DNA of 64,000 nucleotides from Allacma fusca. Its lineage: Eukaryota; Arthropoda; Collembola; Symphypleona; Sminthuridae. Location of the stretch: contig OX359246.1 of the NCBI GenBank assembly GCA_947179485.1, positions 45,549,632 to 45,613,631 of the forward strand, given 5' to 3'. The translations under genes were made by a program, and so were the position numbers. The notes beneath the pieces are model-generated. The model ran no database searches. It was not told where the DNA came from and saw nothing but the letters and a program-made list of their open reading frames with translations. Of the stretch, positions 49,151 through 61,103 are shown piece by piece (the stretch's first letter is position 1; every line of letters begins with the position of its first letter).

Positions 49151-52100
49151 ATGGGGTCAAACGAGCAGATGAGGTCCATTAATGGCAACCAGGATCAAGC
49201 TGGGGCTGTAAGTTAATTAAACTATATTGCCTATAGATTTAGTTAGTTTTGATGATATTTACGGAATTTATACCATTTTAATGCACGTTTGCGTATGATG
49301 CTTTTTTGATTTTGTTTTCAGAATACAATAACGATAATACACTTCAATGATGTGTATGATGTAGCAAGTCAAAATAGGGAGCCAGTGGGTGGTGCAAGTA
49401 GATTCTGCACTGCAGTCAAACAATATAGCTCGCTCGACCCCATTGTTATTTTCTCAGGAGATTGCTTTGCTCCCAGTCTTCGTAAGTTTTCAGCTCTAAA
49501 TTACATTATTGTGAAATTGCAAGTTTGTAATATTTTCTGTAAATGACAACTTTAATAACTAATATGTTTTATTAATGTTGTTACAATTATTTATTTTTTA
49601 AATTTAATTATTTGCAGTAAGTACGTTCACCAAGGGGGAACAAATGGTGCCTGTTCTTAACGCTGTAAAAACAACTTGTGCTGTGTACGGCAATCATGAT
49701 TTTGGTGAGACAGTTTACTGTATAGCATTAACCAATTTATTGGTCTAGTGTTACTTGTAGTTGTGAACTTGGATCATATTATTCATTAGATTTTGGTGTG
49801 GATGTTCTGGCTGACTTGGTGAAGAAGACCAGTTTTCCGTGGTTAATGTCAAACGTCGTCGATAATGAGACAGGTGCTCCTCTTGGTGACGGCCAAGTAA
49901 CATGGGTCCTGGAGAACCATGGGAAAAAGATAGGTCTGGTTAGTCGCAAGAAACATTTATTAATTAAACAAACTATTTGCATTTAGCATGTGTAATTAGC
50001 GTCAGACGACTTTTAATGCATTTACTTAACCGTTACTTGGATTTTTTTGTTTCCAGATGGGATTGGTTGAGTGGGAGTGGCTGGAAACACTTTCAACCAT
50101 CGATCCAGACGCAGTGACATTTCGAGACTTCGTAGACGTTGGAAACGAACTAGCTCAAAGGCTAAGAAATGAGGTATAACGCATAACATACTATTAAAAT
50201 GTTCTGGCCATGTGTGGGTTATAAGTTTGCTGTAAAATGTTTCCTCCAGCATACATCTGCACACTCATACTAAATATCATCCTCGTTTTTGTATAGTGCA
50301 CTTGATGCCACTATGCTATGGAATGTTAAAAGGACTATCATATTGTCTGTATTTCTCCATACAATTTATTTTCTGCAGGGCTGTGACCTTGTAGTGGCTT
50401 TAACTCACATGCGCTTCCCCAATGACGTTCGACTGGCAGAATTATCCGAAGGAATAGATCTAATTTTAGGTGGACACGACCATGTCTATGACGTGAAACA
50501 TGTAAGTAAATAGTAACTATTGCAGATGCTTGCCAAAACTAACGGCATTTTACATTCCTACTTGTTAGGTTCGTCTCTCAGTGTAGGAAAAAATCGAGGG
50601 GGGGGGGGTGTTTATTTATTATTAGGAATATTATTATGAATATATCATCTATGTGTCGATGTTGCCCATTATTGCTAATATTCTTATTAGTATTGTTTGA
50701 ACTAAGTAGATCTTTTCCGTATAATCTTTTATATCTACATATATGAGATATTGTGTTTCGCCTAATTAGATCAAAGGTATACCAATACTGAAGAGCGGGA
50801 CGGACTTCAGAGACTTTAGTGTAATTTCTGTAAGCTGGGAAGATGAAACTAAAGGTAAACCGAAATTTAACATTGATCGGATATCGGTCACATCCGACTA
50901 CGAAGAAGATCCAGGACTCCAGAAGGAGTTATCATGTTATTTTGGTAAGTTGTGCGTCTGTTTAATTCCCTAACTTGTCCCCGAAATCACTGATGTCAGC
51001 CAAATCCTTGCAATTTATCATTGATACTATTTTAACAGACATGATGGATACGAAATTGGACGACATATTGGGAGAGTTTCACGTTGACTTGGATGGGCGT
51101 TTCGCAGCCGTCAGAACAGGCGAAACAAACTTGGGGAACTTCATGTGTGATATTATGTTAGCGTGTTGTAATGCCGAGTGTGCTATCTTGAATTCTGGAA
51201 CGCTGCGATCGGATCGCATACATACCGCTGGCCTATTTTCTATTCGTGACTTACTCACAGTCCTTCCAATGATGGACTCACTTGTTGTGGTAAACGTTTC
51301 GGGTAAGCTGTTAATCACATTTTAATTCACTTGATATGGTTGACTCTGACCTTAACTCCACTCATACAGCCTCTGTTTGTCGTAAATTACTGCTTGCATA
51401 TATTCACTTGTTTGTTTTGGTCGACAGGTTCTATTTGTGCATTGTCATAACCAACTCTTACAATTAACGTTTTTATGATTTCATTTAGATTCAGCTTCGA
51501 ACTCGCTTGAAAATTGTTACTCATGTCAATTTTATACCTATAGGTAGCCAACTTGTGGATGCTTTGGAAAATGGTGTTTCACAATACCCAAAGTTGGAAG
51601 GGCGCTTCCCTCAAGTTGCAGGTTTGAGATTTGCATTTGATCCTTCCAAGTCTCCGGGTAACCGCGTGGACCCAAAATTTGTTCGTATTGGAGATGAGTA
51701 CATTCAGCCTCACCAATACTATCAACTTGCTACCAAGAAATACATAGCTACGGGGCATGATGGCTACACTGTGTTAGCTAATTGCGAAGTTTTGGTAATT
51801 TTCCTGTCATTATATTTGCAATTTATTGTTGTTGTAAATAAGTTGATTGTAACTTGTGACCAAAAGAGTATCTATGTTTTGAGTAACGGTTTATTGTCGT
51901 TGAGTGTTGACTTAATATTGGTAATTACTCATTGACTAATCACTCCTTTTAATATTTATATAATCTCCCCTATAGAAAGATGAAGAGACGTGTTTGGAAT
52001 TATCCATAGCCGTGCAGAACCACTTCAGCGCAATTAAAATGGTATCTGGAACAGGCCGTCGGAATTCTCGACACCACCAGTCTCTGATTACCATGTCTCG

Positions 52101-54672
52101 TCGTCACAGTTTACTTCGGTCTTTAAGCTCTTTGCAGATTCACGAATCATCTCCTACTCCCGTAATAGAAAGAGGCATGTCTTTATCTCCTCGTCCATCT
52201 CTGTCCAGGCAGGGAAATGTTATTGAAAATTTGGAGAAGACAACTTGTCAGTTGGCACCTGTTGTTGAAGGCCGAATTGTTGTTATTAAAAACAAGGATG
52301 TGAGTTTACTTGTATTTCCATTATTAAAACTCGTTGCCAGGTATCAAAATACTGAGAATTGTGAAGAGTTGAAAGTAAAAAAAATTTTTGATGCTGCTTA
52401 AAGAGTTTGCATGGAGATTTCAGCAGCTTTATTGTAGGTTTGACAGTGGTTTCGCAGAGTTATGTTGGGTTGACTTAAATAGATGTTCATTTTTGTTTAC
52501 TGTTTTAGATACTGCACGACCTTATTAACGAAAGAAAGGAATGGGAAGCAAACCGAGCCATTCAAGAAGAAGACGAAAATGGAAGTCCTAGCACACCTCC
52601 CGGTAAAAACGGTTCAATAGTTTCGGATATGTCTGCCGATCTTTCAACTTGAATTGACTAACACCAGTTTTTGTAGTGTTCATGACGATTCAATCAGTAA
52701 TTATTTAGAACTGGATTAACAAGTTTTAGATATAAGCATTTATTTTCTTGCTTTTCGACGGTGCAGGTAGATGTACAGTCAATTTAGTATTAATAAGATG
52801 AACAAAATTTAGAATAGTATTTGCATGTTAGGTATTAAGCTTGTAACGTCCAAATGATTTACGCACTTAACTACTTATATACGGTTTTGTATGAATATGA
52901 TTAAAGTTGATGTTACGTTATCTTCCTGTCCGAGTGTGGGTTTACATATGGTGAGTTTTTGTAATGGCTTTGATTATTCCAGTGGAAATACAGAGGAGTC
53001 AGGGAATAATTATGCAAATCATTTTTGTTATTTATGAGTGCTATGATTGTTAATAGTCATAAACTTTTTTTAAATGAATTGACATAAGGTACCCTTTTAA
53101 TACTCTGCTCTTTTCTGCTAGATTTTTAAAATTCGGCCTTGTATTACCAATTTATGATTTTAGTAGGTTTTAGATTTTTGATCCAAGTAGGAAATACTTT
53201 AGTGAATAAAAGGGAATGACCTATTTAAGTCTAGATAGCATCAGTCAATATAGAAGCAGAATAAAAGGACCGGTTCCAATCAAATATAACTTACTCATGT
53301 GATTATGAAATCAGTTATAATTATCTGATCGTATAAAATAACTGACTAGAATTTTGAGGCAAAACTATTTTGAAATCTAATTCCTGCATGTATACCTAGA
53401 TATACAGATTAGATACATATGTGTGCGCATGGATACAATGTTCCAAACTTGTAGTTCAAGGTTAAGGTTTATTTTGATTCTACATTGACTCGTTCGAGTA
53501 CTAATAATTATTAGACTAGTTTTCAATTTATAACAGCCCTTGCAATTAAATAATTTGATTTTTTTTATTAGCGACTCATTGGCAACTATATAACCACTAA
53601 TATAAAAATTGTACGTACACCTATCATTTAAGGAAAGAAGAGCAGGTGATAAGTATACTGTGATTGAAGAACTCATTCCCTATTATTTAACGATTAATGA
53701 CGCATCTACTATGTGTCAGCAATTAACCAATGATAAATGAATTTTTTATTGTTACGTAATATTTGTTGACGTGTTCTGTAGTTAGGAAAATAAAGCGCAC
53801 TCGCACTTGTTTGGTGATGCTGTGATAGTTTTTGTGTCACAATGTTTGTAACATGTTCTAGTTTTGTTTTTGTGATGTTCTGAGGTGGAAGAAATCGTTA
53901 TGGATTTTTGTGGTTCAACATTTGTTGCACTATTGTACTCGTACTCATGTACTGTCAAGTCACTTGAAAGTGAGCTTGTGTAGGTGTCTGAAAACATAAT
54001 AAAAAAATATTTAATACTTTAAAAAGCCTGCAGTTTTGTCTATTCTTATAATAATTACTAATCCAACCATATTTTTTATTCATTCAATTATGTAAGAACT
54101 TAATCTCAATATTTATCTCACCTAATCAATTCATTCTCATCCTTGTCACTTGCTCCATTTTAGCAGTCTTATGAAACTAGTCTCCAAATGCGGCTCATTT
54201 TTTAAAAATATTTTCTTTCAGCTCATGCTTTCATTGCTATTTCTATCACTTAACCCCAATTTCGTGGGGTACTTAAACAAATGTCTGATGCTTGTTAAAA
54301 CAAATACAATACAAAATACATAAATAACCTTTTGTATTTACATTTAATATACTTTGTTATTATCTTAATATTTGAGTTCCCTTTTACGGAGACCTTTCTA
54401 GCTGAATCAGTGTAATACCTACATTTTTACCGTGTATTTGAAAAAATAGCCTGATTGAACTCCACAAATTACACACAAAATCAGTCACTTCTTTTGCAAT
54501 TTAAAAACATTTTGTTTTTTTTTCAGCAATCTTATCCAGATTAAGGGCTCTACACTTTGAGGCCGTCACTTCCCAGGATTCCGGGATCTCCGACTCCATT
54601 TCAAGGGATTCGTCCCCGGCTTCAACCCCTACATTTACTGCCCATGAAATAATTGTAGACGTGGTTGATTGA
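49151..54672 (+). CDS. UshA/5'-nucleotidase-like metallophosphoesterase (CG11883 type), cytosolic
   Basis: Exons 49151-49207, 49322-49481, 49618-49704, 49790-49938, 50057-50173, 50379-50501, 50770-50944, 51039-51302, 51544-51794, 51976-52299, 52509-52602 and 54527-54672 give 648 residues. Metal-site motifs of the calcineurin-like fold are present: IIHFNDVYDV, SGDCFAPS, YGNHDFDFG, ALTHMRFPND and GGHDHVYD. A C-terminal nucleotidase domain follows, with GETNLGNFMCDIM, ILNSGTLRSD and LENGVSQYPKLEGRFPQVAG. There is no signal peptide or GPI tail, unlike ecto-5'-nucleotidase, and the wording (HFNDVY) resembles the insect CG11883 group. The true substrate is unknown; nucleotides or other phosphoesters are likely. 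A basic Ser-rich insert (RRNSRHH, RRHSLLRSLSS) near the C-terminus looks like a kinase target. If the last splice is not used, the frame reads on to a stop at 52650-52652, giving 616 residues. Confidence 0.88.
50598..50608. repeat. G homopolymer in intron
   Basis: Eleven G in a row within the intron 50502-50769 of the phosphoesterase gene. Confidence 0.9.
54527..54672 (+). CDS. Distal alternative last exon of the phosphoesterase gene
   Basis: A strong pyrimidine tract and TTTCAG precede 54527. The two leading bases complete the phase-1 codon left at donor CCCG|GTAAAA (52602/52603). The exon codes ILSRLRALHFEAV, QDSGISDSISRDSS and a stop at 54670-54672, with AATAAA at 54721-54726. The in-frame fit, signals and poly(A) hexamer support it. 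QDSGISDS resembles a DSG-type phosphodegron, by motif only. The 1.9-kb intron 52603-54526 holds the 3' UTR of the shorter form, with AATAAA near 53261 and 53788, and otherwise nothing I recognise. Confidence 0.65.
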
Positions 54673-55455
54673 CAAATGTGGCTAATTAAGACTAATGTCC
54701 TAATAACTATATTCCTGGTGAATAAAATAATTATAATTTTTTTTTTGAAAAAAAAAATTCTTTCTGGTTATTACAGTATTACTTAAACCGTCAGTCGGGA
54801 ACTTTATGTTATTGTAAAGGATATTGCTCATGTTCCATCCGCAGTCATAAGAAGGTTAATTAAATTATTGCTGACGTACTCCTTATTATTGGTCAGCGTT
54901 AGACATTTGGGCTTATTATTTTATTTCATTAATAATCATAAATCGAACCATTTAATTTCATACACAATAATATAGCTATTGCTATTTATTTATAATTACA
55001 TACATAAAGGGAATTAACTAAGTAATTATTCATTGGGTACGGAAACTGGGGCAAGTTGAGACTTGGTCATACACGCTCTACACAGAGTAAGTAAGTAAGT
55101 ACTTTCACAACTCCCAACTCTCAAAGTAGTCCTTGAGTGAGGGATTGTACGTTACATGTTGAAGCGTGACTTTTGAATCCACGTTTTGATTCCGTCGGAT
55201 ATACATTTGATTATGTGTGACTTACTTTTACTTATGTGTGAGCAAAAGGGGATAATTGTATGTAAAGTATTCCATGCTTGTGATTTTTCCTTGGTCGGTG
55301 TCGTTTTGTAGAGCGGTTTAAAGATAATTCCTAGGAAGTTAATTATTATTATTTGCATACATTAGCTCATATGCTGGATATAAAGATAGTGGGTGGACGT
55401 TGTATTTTAAATTAGCCATAAACTGGCAACCCTTCCACAACAAGTGATTCCATAA
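54673..55455. other. Intergenic
   Basis: 0.8 kb holding the poly(A) region of the phosphoesterase gene and the promoter/5' UTR of the H3-tail-mimic gene. A short GTAA run lies near 55089. Nothing else recognised. Confidence 0.65.
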
Positions 55456-57385
55456 ATGGGACGGACCAAGCAAACAGCCAGAAAGTCGACAGGTGGCTTT
55501 CCTCCATCAAAAATGTCCAAATTAGAGAATCCGGATTGTATTTCAGAAGAGCCTGGGGATGACGATGATGAGGTCATCTGTGTGAGTTCAGGAAGTTCAG
55601 AATTATCCGAGGATGAGCGGTCCAAAGGGGCTTGGCGAAATGGTCCAACGACAGGCCGTCCAAGAAAAAGAGTTCGTTCCCAAGTAAGTAATGTTTTTTT
55701 TATATTTATATTTAAGTACGCAGATTTTTTAATTTATTTTCGTAGATTAAAGTGTAATAGTCAATTTGAGTGGAGTACAATTTGTAGGTGGAATTTTTAC
55801 TGGATTGGGAATTTATTAGTGAATTATGTTTGTAGATCGGTGGAAATTTGAGATGATGACTATAGTTTTTAATCTGTAAATTTTAGGAGTCTGCCCCGAG
55901 AGGTCGACGACGAAATGTACAGGCCCGAAAATCCACCGGAGTCCCCCCTAAATGGCGATCAGAGCAAGTAGACAAATCGGACTCGGCTTTATCTGATGAG
56001 TCGGATACAGAGGTCAGGTGAAATTGAGATGTTTGACAGTGTTATGTAATTTATGGACGGAATGTAACTTAAGGTAAATAAGGTGAATATTTAATTAATT
56101 ATTGAATTGTTCCTTGCAGTCCAGTTCCCGAGTACCAAGTGAGCCTGGGAGGAGGTATCCTAAAGGGGGGAAGAAATGGAGTGCGATTGTGGCTCATAAT
56201 TCTAATTCTGAAAGTGGAAGTCAAAATTCGAAACCCTCACCTTCTTGTGAAAATCCTGGTGGTGATCGGAATGGGAAGGGAAATAGTGCTCACGCTGAAC
56301 CTGAACCTGAACCCTCTTCATCTGCTCAAGCTACACCTGATGTGGTAATTGGTATTTATTTTTTTAAATGAGTGGAGTTTGTGGGAGGTTGTAGCGATGA
56401 TTTATTGAGAAATTAACATTACATTATTTTCAAACTTCATGCAGTCAACAGACGAAGAGTCCCTATGTGATGGCTTGTCAGCCCGTGAATCGATTCTCAA
56501 ATTAGATGGATGGAATCTCCTGGATGCTACCGATTCTTCTCGTGAAACATTTTGCAAAGAATATTCATTCAAAGGTTTTAATGAGGTAATAGTTCAGAGT
56601 GTGCTGGAGGGGGTTATAAAAAGCTACTAGACTAGTGTTGGGTGGTTGGGTGCCAAGGGTTTTAAGGGTGTTGTTGTACAATAATGTGCAAGGTTCTCTT
56701 CCATATTAATATTTGACTGGGCCCATCAGGTTACCTGTGACCAGAACTATCCAAAATACATTGGGAGAAAATATAAAATACAAGATTCAGGAGCATTTTA
56801 ACCAAAATACAAACTACAAAATTCTTTTTTAACTCCTTGAAATCCAAAATACAAACTAAAAAATCTATTTTAAATGCCATTTAGATATATTTTTTAAATA
56901 CAATGTGTTTTTGTAAGCCAGGTTTTTCGCTTTAACATACATAATGATTGGTTCAGGTGACATAAATGAGGAAAGTTTGAATTTTATGGAAGATTAAGGA
57001 CGAAGACTGTCCTTGACTGCTAAAAAACAAAATACATTCAAGCCTTACACATCAGAAAATACAAACTACAATGCGTTTTAAATACCTGTATTTTGGACAG
57101 CTGTGCCTGTTCCCTTTGACTAGTTTTATATTTATGGTGCTTATGAAACAATAATATTTGTAAACGTAATTATACTTAATTCACTTACTTGTTTTACTAC
57201 AGGCATGGAATTTCATGAGTCAAGTGACAGTTAAATTACAAGTAATGAACCACCATCCCGACTGGCATCAAGTCAATAATAAGGTTAAAGTTTCCCTACC
57301 AAGCTCTGATGCTGACGGTCTTACCTCCAAGGACTCCATACTTGCTGAATTTATGGATAAAGTTGCTAAAGGAATTAATGTCTGA
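55456..57385 (+). CDS. Histone H3-tail mimic fused to a DCoH/PCBD (pterin-4a-carbinolamine dehydratase) domain
   Basis: Exons 55456-55683, 55887-56012, 56120-56344, 56445-56585 and 57203-57385, all joined in phase 0, give 300 residues. An in-frame TAA directly precedes the ATG, which fixes the start. Residues 2-14 (GRTKQTARKSTGG) equal histone H3 residues 1-13 except A1 to G; P16 and K18 of H3 are also kept. Residues 36-52 are acidic around VICVSS, like a SUMO-interaction motif. GRPRKRVRS is NLS-like. Exon 2 has a second ARKSTG (89-94) after a basic run. Exon 3 is disordered. Exons 4-5 are a PCBD/DCoH domain: DGWNLLDA, KEYSFKGFNEAWNFM, NHHPDW, NNKVKVSL, DADGLTSKD, LAEFMDKVA. Two catalytic His remain (257-258), but the third position is Ser275. 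DCoH proteins recycle tetrahydrobiopterin and bind transcription factors. A chromatin role is my inference. The alternative is two adjacent genes with exons 1-3 separate. A poly(A) signal lies at 57606-57611. Confidence 0.8.
56742..57105. mobile_element. hAT-like MITE in intron 4 of the H3-mimic gene
   Basis: Left end CAGAACTATCCAAAATACA and right end, read inward, CACAGCTGTCCAAAATACA, about 15 of 19 matching. The flanking 8-mers are CCTGTGAC (56734-56741) and CCTGTTCC (57106-57113), 6 of 8 alike and probably a worn target duplication. AAAATACAAACTA motifs repeat inside. Same family as the AT-rich element near 40.4 kb. No coding capacity. Confidence 0.6.
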
Positions 57386-57900
57386 ACCCTTCATTTTTAT
57401 TGCCCGAATTCCCTGGGACGACTCATAAATGGACCTATTTTGGAGACTGAAGACTTTATTCTGTTTTTAGCTCATTTTTTTATATCATTGTTCCTTTTAG
57501 TAATGTTTTGTTTATCGTTAATATTTTCTTGTTTTAGAAGAGACGAATGTTATCATTTGATGGTTCTTTCCTTATAATTATTACAGTTTATATTATTCCT
57601 ATGTGAATAAAAATGCAGTTTAGGAACCGATTCGATGTGAATAACAATCAGCACAAATTTATCTTTAAAGTACAGCAACCTTAGAAGTGTGTATTATAAG
57701 TAGTGGTTATATATATTCAAACGTTACAATATATATTTCATTGTATTAATGTTTTCGCGGCAACTGTTCAGATATGAAACAAAACTTATTGTATAGTTTC
57801 GCATTTTATTGGGAATGACCTTGAAATTGAAGTTCATCAAATAAATATTCTTTATTATTGTTGAATATAAATTATAAGTTTGTTGCAATTGAATTTGTAG

Positions 57901-57966
57901 TTTTTCAATTCAGTACAGGAACATTTAATTGATGGTTTTTGAAGATGCCTGTACTAAATTGAAAAA
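57901..57966. repeat. Long-stem hairpin in convergent intergenic region
   Basis: The arm TTTTTCAATTCAGTACAGG (57901-57919) is complementary to CCTGTACTAAATTGAAAAA (57948-57966) except at one position, with a 28-base loop. On the minus strand the odd position becomes a G-U pair, so a minus-strand RNA would be fully paired over 19 bp. It could be a small palindromic element, a pre-miRNA-like hairpin or a 3' UTR structure of the GTSF1-like transcript. I do not recognise a known miRNA. Confidence 0.7.
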
Positions 57967-58090
57967 TGGTATTAATTAAAAATTATTAGTCAACTGTCAA
58001 ATCGAATCATTACGTCGTCGTATTTACGATAGAACATCTGAAACCCCAAAATGTTTGGGTAATTAAGTATCACAATAAATAATGATTTGT

Positions 58091-58125
58091 TTTATGACGA
58101 AACATAAATTCTGTTTCGTCATAAA
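58091..58125. repeat. Perfect 14-bp inverted repeat
   Basis: TTTATGACGAAACA (58091-58104), a 7-base loop, then TGTTTCGTCATAAA (58112-58125). It lies between the stop codons of the two converging genes, about 170 bases past the end of the GTSF1-like CDS. Confidence 0.85.
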
Positions 58126-58295
58126 GCAAGAAAACAAAAAATACGAACTTAGAATTTTTATACCAACATAATTATATAAAGTAAATGTAAATGGTAAACC
58201 CCATTTAATAGATAAATACAACGAATTCTCTTGCTTAGAAATTAATAATCCGCTTATATAATTAGTCCATTATTATAGTTAGTTATTATAATTAA

Positions 58296-59936
58296 TTATT
58301 TCCACTCTTCGTTTGGCCGCTGCAACCTTGCAGAATGACCTCCCCGCTTGAAATTCCCATCCACCCAATTCTTAGTGTCAGTGTCATCCAATCTATTCGT
58401 CTCCAATTGCAAGTTCAACCTTCCGCTGCTGAATGGTGCATTAAGAAAAATTGCAGGGCCCTCTGTCGGAATTTCTGCCTGTGCCCTTCCGGTTTGGTTG
58501 GGTAATGGGTAGTTGACGCTTTTCTCATTCATCTTATTAGCCTCCAGTCTGCTGATACTGCTTTCGTAGTTATCCCAAAATGGTCCCGCAACCAAATGGT
58601 AGAATTTCAGACGTTGCTCTTCTCGGTGCTTGGTTTTTGCAGTTCTGTTCAAATTCTTGGGTTGGCTGCAATCATAAAAACAAACTTTTTTGCAACTAGT
58701 CTGTATTCTAAATTAACAAAGATTATGTAGATTTTTATGTCTGAAAAATATTTCCCTTTTGAAATGCTTACTAAAAAACTGGCTCATCTAAGACTTTCTT
58801 CATTGGATTGTAAGTAAGATGGCGCGGTGGCTCTGCTCCCCAATCTTCTGTAAACTGCGCTAGTTCCGGCGGACAAATGATCTTGTCCTTCGGAGCGTAC
58901 CTTTTGATGTCCTCCACTGAAAAGATCAAAAGCGACCATAAGCCATTTGTGCACGGAAAATTTGAGCACAATTTAAAGGGAAATAAAATATTATTTGACA
59001 CTGGATACAGTCAAAAAAACTAGTGCTAGAGTTGTAGTAGGCGAGTTAGTAGAAATATTTTGGAAACTAGTACAACGCCTGGTTAGTGCTTAAGAATTAA
59101 AGGAAAGTAAGTAGTTTTAGCCATTTTAGTTATATCATGGCTGTGGAAGGATTCAAAGTAGTAATTCTGTAAAACAACCCCTGGACATAATTTATGACTC
59201 TCCGAAGATCAGAAAAACTCACATTCTTCCTGAGTATTTTTGTAGCGACTTCCGCATTGGGCGGAATGGTATGATGCTTCAACCTCAGGGATGATATGGT
59301 GCTCATTCCAAGGACAGTTGATGTATCTCTCGGATAATCCCCGAGACTGGAGCTTGTTCTTATGGTTGGTCCTGCAACGATCCAGGTGGTTAGCCATCCT
59401 CGTTGGTCTGCAACAGAAATTAAACAGCTTTTAGTTACAAGTCTCCACATATGCCCACAATGATTCTTAGGATAGAATTAGAAATAAAATTCTGAAAATT
59501 TTACAAGCTCCCAGAAGCTTTCTATCAAAATTTGGTATATTATTCAAGGAAATGAATCCGATTGGGACAAATATTAAGGAAAAAGAATTCTGACATAAAA
59601 TTTTAATATCTGAATATATGTAAGAATTAGAATCTTATTTTTTTTTCGTATCAATCAAATATAATTTGATTTACTGCAAAATGTAATGCAACTAAGCCCA
59701 TACACCAGATGTTCAAAGCTAGGTTTCAATTAAACTTACAGAATCCGATGACTTTTCTCGTACGGGCACTGTACAAGGTGCTCTCCAGGTGCTAGACCAA
59801 AGTTAACAAAGTGTTCTGGAGAGACTGAATTCGGGATGCAAGGGTCGGCCTCGTACATAAATGTTGCAGAATCTTCCTCTGGAATTTCTGGAAGACTCTG
59901 CCTAAATGAATTTGTGAAAGGAACGTCACCAGCCAT
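58296..59936 (-). CDS. GTSF1: GTSF1/Asterix-like protein with two CHHC zinc fingers
   Basis: Minus-strand exons 59936-59740, 59407-59223, 58916-58772 and 58665-58296 give 298 residues. Two CHHC fingers with exact C-x5-H-x9-H-x3-C spacing are seen: C57-H63-H73-C77 (CPYEKSH and NHLDRC) and C97-H103-H113-C117 (CPWNEHH and YHSAQC). This pair is the mark of the U11-48K/GTSF1 family. In GTSF1 and Drosophila Asterix the fingers bind RNA, and the protein helps PIWI-piRNA complexes silence transposons. The start is ATGGCTGG with a good Kozak context (CAAAATGG) and an in-frame TAG upstream. Known GTSF1 proteins are about 165 residues; here a long C-terminal tail adds some 130. It contains IICPPELAQFTEDWGAEPP, which resembles the acidic/aromatic part that binds PIWI, then a polar end. 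Orthology is likely but the tail is unusual. Confidence 0.88.
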
Positions 59937-60512
59937 TTTTGTGGAAACCAAAAAGTGGAACTTCTGGGAGCTCTACTGAAACAAACTTTTGCCAAGGGAC
60001 GGGACACAAATGAAGATTTTGACAGTTTCTTAGCTGTTTTATAGCCAGGGGGTGTGGAGGAGGGTGGGTTATTTCCAGTATATTTCAGGGTTAAACCTTA
60101 AGGAACATTATTGGTTCTTACAAAATTGAAAATGTCGTCCCTTCTTCTATGCTTCCTTCCAAAAAATATTCAATAAAGCATCGACATGTTTCAGGGTGAA
60201 AGAATCGACTTAACAATGTATACTTACAAAAATAAATTATTTTGCTTCAGGGTATGAAACATTTTAACTGCTAACGCTACGTTACACCATATAGCTTTCT
60301 TAGGCGGTAATATTTATATGCATTTTTCAAAACTTTTAGGTACTTTTCTCACTAAACTAATCCAAGCTAAATGACCTTATGCGAAAGTTAGATTGAAATT
60401 GATTTAAACACTGTGGAATATGTTTTGCAGAAAGATGGCTGCTAGTTACAGCGATTTTATTATAGTTTCATCTTGCAAGCCTCTTAAAATATTAATGTAG
60501 AGTAGGAATTCT
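59937..60512. other. Intergenic
   Basis: Promoter side of the GTSF1-like gene and 3' end of the cuticle gene, whose minus-strand AATAAA is at 60456-60461. Nothing else recognised. Confidence 0.7.
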
Positions 60513-61103
60513 TTAATGGTGTCCGTGACCATGTCCGTGTCCATGTTGACCAGGAGTACGGTGAACGTTGGCACGGAATCCATTGTAGTCAGCAACGTAG
60601 GTCACGTGTCTCCAGCCACCATCAGCCTCACGAAGGGAATATTCTCCCTTGACATTTTCTCCATCACGGACCTCGCTCTGTTGCTTCACGTCACCAGTGT
60701 AGTGGTCGTTGACTCCATATTGGAACTTGTATTTGGGGTAAGCCTGTAAAAGTGTATTTACAAGAAAATGTTTTCAGAACAATTCTCACGGAAAGCATTT
60801 CTGGATGATATAAAATATGAAGAGAAACTTTGACACGTAAGTGTAGCTCAAAACTTACATAATAGTCCTGGACGTATCCATGACCGTGTCCGTGTCCACC
60901 GTGTCCATGACCATGCTCAGCCAAAGCGAAAGCGACGCCCAGGAGGACGCAAACCTGTGAGAATTAAATTAAAATGAAATATTAGGTGACATAGTACCTT
61001 TTGGAACAGTTTCAATAAAGAGCACGATATTTTGAAGAAATTGTAAACGTTTTGTCAAGTAATAAAATAAAATACGAACAATAGCAACTGGGAATCTTGA
61101 CAT
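60513..61103 (-). CDS. RR-2 cuticle protein (chitin-binding 4)
   Basis: Minus-strand exons 61103-61080, 60954-60859 and 60743-60513 give 116 residues. A signal peptide ([20 protein letters not shown]) is split by intron 1, as is usual for arthropod cuticle genes. A His-Gly linker follows ([14 protein letters not shown]). The extended Rebers-Riddiford RR-2 domain comes next: [20 protein letters not shown], then [19 protein letters not shown], then [19 protein letters not shown]. The end is a second His-Gly run ([12 protein letters not shown]). RR-2 proteins bind chitin and are typical of hard cuticle. Donor 1 (ATT|GTTCGT) is weak, but it gives the expected signal peptide and frame. A TATA box and initiator lie upstream and a poly(A) signal at 60456-60461. 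The open frame on the opposite strand is a shadow. Confidence 0.93.

Follow-up and report, generated by a model that had tools for sequence, protein, structure and literature searches.

Most of the histone mimics known to us are single, short motifs that occur in viral factors or in proteins unrelated to one another. One of them, an internal H3K9-like mimic, is reportedly present in G9a. Two published accounts describe internal ARKS-type motifs, also H3K9-like, in ADNP, LIG1 and WIZ, which could be methylated and read (PMC3022755, PMC10611923). The gene that we describe here, from the springtail Allacma fusca, encodes a similar short ARKS-type motif. Those of ADNP, LIG1, WIZ and G9a are short, internal and found in unrelated proteins, whereas this one stands at the exact H3 position, in genes that form their own family. 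The nearest precedent is PAF15/PCLAF (PCNA-associated factor, PF15715), whose N-terminus has VRTK for ARTK and is bound by the PHD finger of UHRF1 (PMC8034647). Like PAF15, the A. fusca protein is a non-histone protein whose very N-terminus copies H3, but the match of its tail to H3 extends through the K9 region to residue 13, and the tail is joined to DCoH. The full Pterin_4a domain of the protein likens it to PCBD1/PCBD2 (DCoH, pterin-4a-carbinolamine dehydratase), from which it differs by an N-terminal extension of about 200 residues with the H3-like tail and by the replacement of the third catalytic histidine, more of these being lost in its paralogs. No DCoH/H3-tail fusion and no tandem H3 tails stood out among the literature matches listed, subscription papers being mostly outside the coverage.

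As read from the genome, an N-terminal exon resembling the H3 tail has been joined to a DCoH gene that is duplicated and diverging, and three paralogs and an ortholog of one of them show this arrangement.

An H3-like exon and a DCoH domain in one gene

We analysed a window of 64,000 nucleotides (G000:C8:45549632-45613631). The five exons of the window gene span positions 55456-57385 and join to 903 nt (300 aa). All borders are GT/AG, every exon is in phase 0, and the GC content is 0.39-0.54 in exons vs 0.25-0.32 in introns. Read-through from an upstream gene is excluded by an in-frame TAA directly 5' of the ATG at 55456. The features of the gene are the following (window positions):

55456..55683, + strand: exon 1, with the H3-like tail, an acidic stretch and a basic stretch; donor CAA/GTAAGT
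55456..55497, + strand: Met followed by GRTKQTARKSTGG, 12 of 13 residues identical to H3 1-13; the N-terminal spacing is correct if Met is removed
55513..55515, + strand: Met20, at which the publicly annotated, tail-less product of 281 aa starts
55546..55617, + strand: acidic/Ser stretch with a VICV core, SUMO-interacting-motif-like (translation read by eye)
55654..55680, + strand: GRPRKRVRS, AT-hook/NLS-like basic stretch (translation read by eye; no Pfam match)
55887..56012, + strand: exon 2
55923..55955, + strand: second H3K9-like motif, ARKSTGVPPKW, residues 89-99, which alone is within chance
56120..56344, + strand: exon 3, low-complexity Ser/Pro/Glu linker
56445..56585, + strand: exon 4, first half of the Pterin_4a domain
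57203..57385, + strand: exon 5, with the second half of the Pterin_4a domain, then the stop codon
57251..57256, + strand: His257-His258, two of the three catalytic His equivalents, the third being Ser275 (from the alignment)

The acidic/Ser stretch around VICV presumably resembles a SUMO-interacting motif, and we take GRPRKRVRS to be AT-hook/NLS-like. The linker has an acidic/basic composition and includes the second ARKSTG (residues 89-94, exon 2). The phase-0 intron before the AW of exon 5 lies at a position common to the paralogs described below (L011 and L009).

A preliminary description of this DNA had read residues 2-14 as H3 1-13 with the sole change A1G, and had added that H3 P16 and K18 are kept. 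The translation bears out the first statement and the gapless alignment the second, since both residues are matched if gaps are disallowed. As a peptide, the tail reads GRTKQTARKSTGGFPPSK. Methionine is removed before glycine, and after this predicted removal the free end would be G-R-T-K-Q-T-A-R-K-S-T-G-G, with the correct H3 spacing (G1 R2 T3 K4 ... G13). We rejected N-myristoylation of MGRTK because Arg after Gly is disfavoured in the PROSITE N-myristoylation pattern.

To control for chance, the H3 13-mer was compared with the six-frame translation of 254,000 bases (the window and L012-L030, small overlaps included). It scored 13 once (a real H3 gene), 12 once (the window gene), 9 once (L011), 8 once (L009) and 7 at two places. 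Of 100 shuffled 13-mers, 4 had a best score of 8, 41 one of 7 and 55 one of 6, and none exceeded 8. A chance match for the window tail was thus rejected (12/13 vs a shuffled best of 8). The second ARKSTG, which the preliminary description had overlooked, matches 7/13 residues and is, alone, within the chance range of the shuffled 13-mers. Its score against H3 was reached by 68 of 5000 shuffles and another score by 81 of 5000, for which reason exon 2 was rejected as a proven second copy of the tail.

The Pterin_4a domain covers residues 208-294 (75.6 bits vs a curated cut-off of 26, E 3.5e-21), and the best PDB match of the protein is DCoHm (1ru0, E 4.1e-20). The five-exon model agrees with the earlier claim that four phase-0 exons after exon 1 lead to a PCBD/DCoH domain. 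Nothing besides Pterin_4a was found in the protein with Pfam at E up to 10, neither a Histone match nor one to PF15715 (PAF15/PCLAF). The H3 gene in L013, our positive comparison for the histone-fold search, scores 165 bits in Pfam.

Tail-bearing relatives and the start of the protein

The search of the species' own genome for Pterin_4a (E up to 10, four candidates scored) revealed four loci: the canonical-looking L010 on C10 (82.3 bits), the window gene, L011 about 55 kb further on C8, and L009 on C1. All three non-canonical loci start with an H3-like tail, and no match of at least 7/13 to the H3 tip was found within the 8 kb of L010. L011 has four phase-0 exons with GT/AG borders and begins MVGAKQTARLSTGGIPRQFK. 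The public protein P0003, which was annotated independently, is identical to this model over all 190 residues, tail included. An ortholog of L011 from a metagenome source, P0004 (199 aa), begins MIGAKQTAHMSTSGIPRHF and is 57% identical to P0003 over the whole length. Its contig is probably a transcript, because 941 bases cannot hold introns like those of L011. The five-exon model of L009 begins MNQKKSKYTARKSTAGEPRF, and the public protein of this locus (P0002) has 14 residues upstream of that Met and other splice sites just after the tail.

None of 5000 shuffles reached the scores of the tails of L011, P0004 and L009 against Met + H3 1-19, the tail of P0004 exceeding the best shuffle by one point only. 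These tails match H3 1-13 at 9/13, 7/13 and 8/13 residues, respectively, that of L009 (8/13) being alone within the range of shuffled 13-mers. K4 is kept at the aligned position in all four members of the family (window gene, L011, P0004 and L009). K9 is kept in the window gene and in L009, and is replaced by Leu in L011 and by Met in P0004. R2 is kept only in the window gene and lost in the other three. Hence, methylation like that of H3K9 cannot be general, because K9 is lost in two of the four members, and one single reader cannot explain the whole family when R2 is in addition lost in three. The preliminary description had proposed that the protein could be methylated like H3 and use H3 readers, and had named the lack of an H3-like N-terminus in relatives as evidence to the contrary. 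Three loci and P0004 carry such tails, and this check did not refute the proposal. The joining of tail and domain in one gene and the recurrence of the tail are supported; methylation, reader binding and a chromatin role stay putative, and the simplest form of the proposal is at odds with the losses of K9 and R2 and with the public start after the tail.

The His triad, read from the alignment, is HH..H in L010. It becomes HH..S in the window gene, while L009 has NH..P, and L011 and P0004 both have RY..S; the catalytic roles are those of the equivalent residues in PCBD1/2. The window gene keeps HHP and has Ser275 in place of the third His, and we therefore class its product as a DCoH-fold protein and not as an enzyme. 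DCoH activity is doubtful for this protein because one of the three catalytic histidines is replaced in it and all three are replaced in another copy, L011; the canonical L010 keeps all three. To judge from these residues, enzyme function seems to be fading in the copies that carry a tail.

The public protein P0001 (281 aa, unnamed product) is exactly residues 20-300 of the window protein. It agrees with the joining of all five exons, starts at Met20 and omits the tail. That exons of two neighbouring genes were wrongly joined is extremely improbable: the public model has these five exons joined as well, from Met20 onwards, the exon order is the same in the paralogs, and in P0004, whose 941-base contig could not accommodate L011-like introns, tail and domain share one frame. 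The earlier placing of tail and DCoH domain in one gene model is thereby supported. The public start raises another alternative, in which the tail is normally untranslated and the gene encodes a nuclear DCoH-like factor without the mimic. Besides the beginning of P0001, this is favoured by the start context, with A at -3 and T at +4 for Met20 vs T at -3 and G at +4 for the first ATG, which under the Kozak rule makes the two about even or Met20 better. Yet related genes carry an in-frame tail at their start, P0003 is annotated with its tail, and P0001 derives from a contig of only 8,226 bases. A start at Met20 seems to us very unlikely, and we retain the first ATG as the presumptive start.

When the whole window protein (971 candidates) or its DCoH part (8 candidates) was the query, the sole protein retrieved was the A. 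fusca record itself, and a profile of the three paralogs retrieved four proteins at E up to 10 among 3,428 candidates. The protein searches returned no ordinary PCBD, owing to length and shared-word limits, and are silent on other springtails. As a detail of annotation, the alignment of P0004 with L011 (3449-3529) suggests that exon 1 of the latter ends seven codons later (VTRCVDT), still in phase. The first exon of P0003 apparently stops seven codons early, and a second donor downstream fits better.

Divergence of the tail and fold-less H3-tail genes

The window tail was compared at the DNA level with one H3 gene, 18 kb away. Nine of the ten four-fold third positions differ (the ten codons include one CGT/AGA codon as well as the first codon, which is replaced, and some of the divergence is on the H3 side), but only 1 of the 13 residues. 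In neutral simulations, at least 12 residues were kept in 4,527, 337, 15 and 0 of 20,000 runs when 10, 20, 30 and 50% of the sites were changed. Because nine of the ten four-fold sites but a single residue differ, the window tail appears to be no recent copy, nor does it seem free to drift. On the same nine positions we rejected the idea that a piece of the neighbouring H3 gene had recently been inserted.

An H2B-H3-H4-H2A-H2B cluster on C8 (C8:45,623,543-45,631,842) separates the window gene, which ends 16.5 kb before it, from L011, which follows 30 kb after it. In the 89 kb around the C1 copy (L009), histone queries gave one weak H2B match only (E 0.071). The genome search with H3 returned 13 full-length, 100% identical matches at five places, and at least 38 matches in all. 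Since H3 genes occur at five places, the closeness of the window gene to H3 is suggestive, not proof, of a local capture of the tail from the adjacent H3 gene. It could also be that the tail is a relic exon, captured once from H3 or from an H3-tail gene, which has no role and is eroding in the paralogs. The histone cluster is about 16.5 and 30 kb away from two of the copies, and only 9, 7 and 8 of the 13 residues are left in L011, P0004 and L009, as one would expect of a relic. However, the window gene keeps 12/13 residues though 9/10 four-fold third positions have changed, and the tail is retained in two sources that are 57% identical overall. We consider a roleless relic unlikely.

The H3 genome search also revealed, at C8:65.509 Mb, an intronless open frame of 306 aa that matches the H3 tail three times (L035). 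Read from the ATG, its product has 299 aa, in which acidic linkers rich in Ser and Glu lie between the three H3 tails. Two further genes with tails, likewise with acidic linkers, are found at this other histone cluster:

L035, 559-1458 (coding part G000:C8:65509058-65509954): three-tail frame of 299 aa
L037, 229-594: 121 aa, one tail
L039, 289-927: 212 aa, MRVKLTAVKSTGRVPTW..., with a second ARTKETTARK

With Pfam at E up to 10, L035 and L037 have no Histone match, and L035 has no match at all. The histone stem-loop RF00032 is present 3' of L035 (1502-1547, 37.8 bits), of L039 (986-1032, 40.8 bits) and of L037 (L043 127-171, about 180 nt after the stop, 36.5 bits). As these genes read, all three have the 3' stem-loop of histone-type mRNAs after an intronless frame. 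Because each of the three fold-less genes precedes such a stem-loop, we conclude at the level of gene prediction that H3-tail-only genes exist in the A. fusca genome. They share with replication-dependent histone H3 genes the tail sequence and the location in a histone cluster with RF00032, but no histone fold was found in L035, L037 or the window protein. The window gene further differs from these H3 genes by its introns, and no stem-loop above the Rfam cut-off was found in 54500-60000 of the window. The genome search with L035 returned these three genes, the H3 genes and three degenerate-looking places, for a total of 21 matches.

The fold-less genes bear on the origin of the DCoH tails. Relative to TGGKAPR in H3, a shortening by one residue is seen in the first tail of L035 and in L037 (TGGVPR), in L011 (TGGIPR), in P0004 (TSGIPR) and in L009 (TAGEPR). 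The second and third tails of L035 are unshortened (TGGKPPR and TGGKAPR), L039 has TGRVPT, and TGGFPPSK in the window gene can be aligned either way. That L011, P0004 and L009 share the shortening with the first tail of L035 and with L037 hints that the DCoH tails may derive from fold-less tail genes and not from H3 directly. The tail would have come from the species' fold-less H3-tail genes or from the neighbouring H3 gene.

Two observations stand apart from this question. On the minus strand of L036 (G000:C8:58628877-58629035) there is an 81-aa frame with ARTKQTARKGSGLSKLHKQLATKSARARSAP, which is H3-tail-like and possibly degenerate. The three-tail frame of L035 is possibly more surprising than the DCoH fusion.

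A putative multivalent adaptor or decoy

In our preferred reading, to which we give a probability of about 0.5, the window gene encodes an H3-tail mimic on a duplicated DCoH (PCBD) scaffold that would act as a multivalent adaptor or decoy for H3 readers and writers. Translation would begin at the first ATG and the removal of Met would expose the free G-R-T-K end. DCoH forms dimers and tetramers, therefore there would be two to four tail ends per complex. In the oligomer, these ends and the internal ARKSTG copies would be on offer to readers and writers of the H3 tail, and the SIM-like and AT-hook-like stretches may help the contact with chromatin. The product of the window gene probably has less enzyme activity and that of the RYP copy probably none, which is why the DCoH part may be mainly an oligomerisation or protein-binding module.

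The tail might instead be kept mainly for nuclear import, as a short basic targeting signal, with reader binding unused. The H3 tail is itself recognised by importins. Tails staying basic while K9 and R2 vary between copies, and further basic stretches occurring downstream, are consistent with such a role. But a targeting signal need not keep 12/13 H3 residues while most four-fold sites differ, and the several other basic stretches would already suffice. We give targeting a low probability, and the adaptor or decoy remains our preferred reading.

A. fusca eliminates paternal chromosomes (PMC10427803), which makes unusual chromatin proteins of this species of wider interest. A tentative extension, which we hold to be possible but doubtful, is a springtail toolkit in which S-phase-type, fold-less proteins with up to three tails and DCoH-displayed tails would either compete for the enzymes and readers that act on H3 K4/K9 or form bridges between them. 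It might act, for example, while paternal chromosomes are marked or eliminated, but a link between the tail mimics and paternal-genome elimination is speculation. In one animal, two gene groups carry the whole H3 tip as a module, so that a direct test becomes possible of whether H3 readers and writers use detached multivalent tails. With K9 kept, changed to Leu or changed to Met, the copies offer a natural set of tails for asking which residues matter. If true, a protein of covalently linked H3 tails that lacks the histone fold would represent a chromatin regulator of a new kind.

Other frames in the window are of minor interest. At 59736-59972 (- strand) there is a weak match to the U11-48K/CHHC zinc finger (18.8 bits vs a cut-off of 21.1), in a frame that we presume to be reminiscent of the piRNA factor GTSF1. 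Positions 1-20200 (+ strand) contain Ig, LDLa, laminin-type and EGF-like frames, perlecan-like as judged by eye. Ordinary neighbours are a 5'-nucleotidase C-terminal domain at 50966-51322 (+ strand, E 1.6e-12) and a cuticle protein at 60516-60773 (- strand, Chitin_bind_4, E 1.8e-15).
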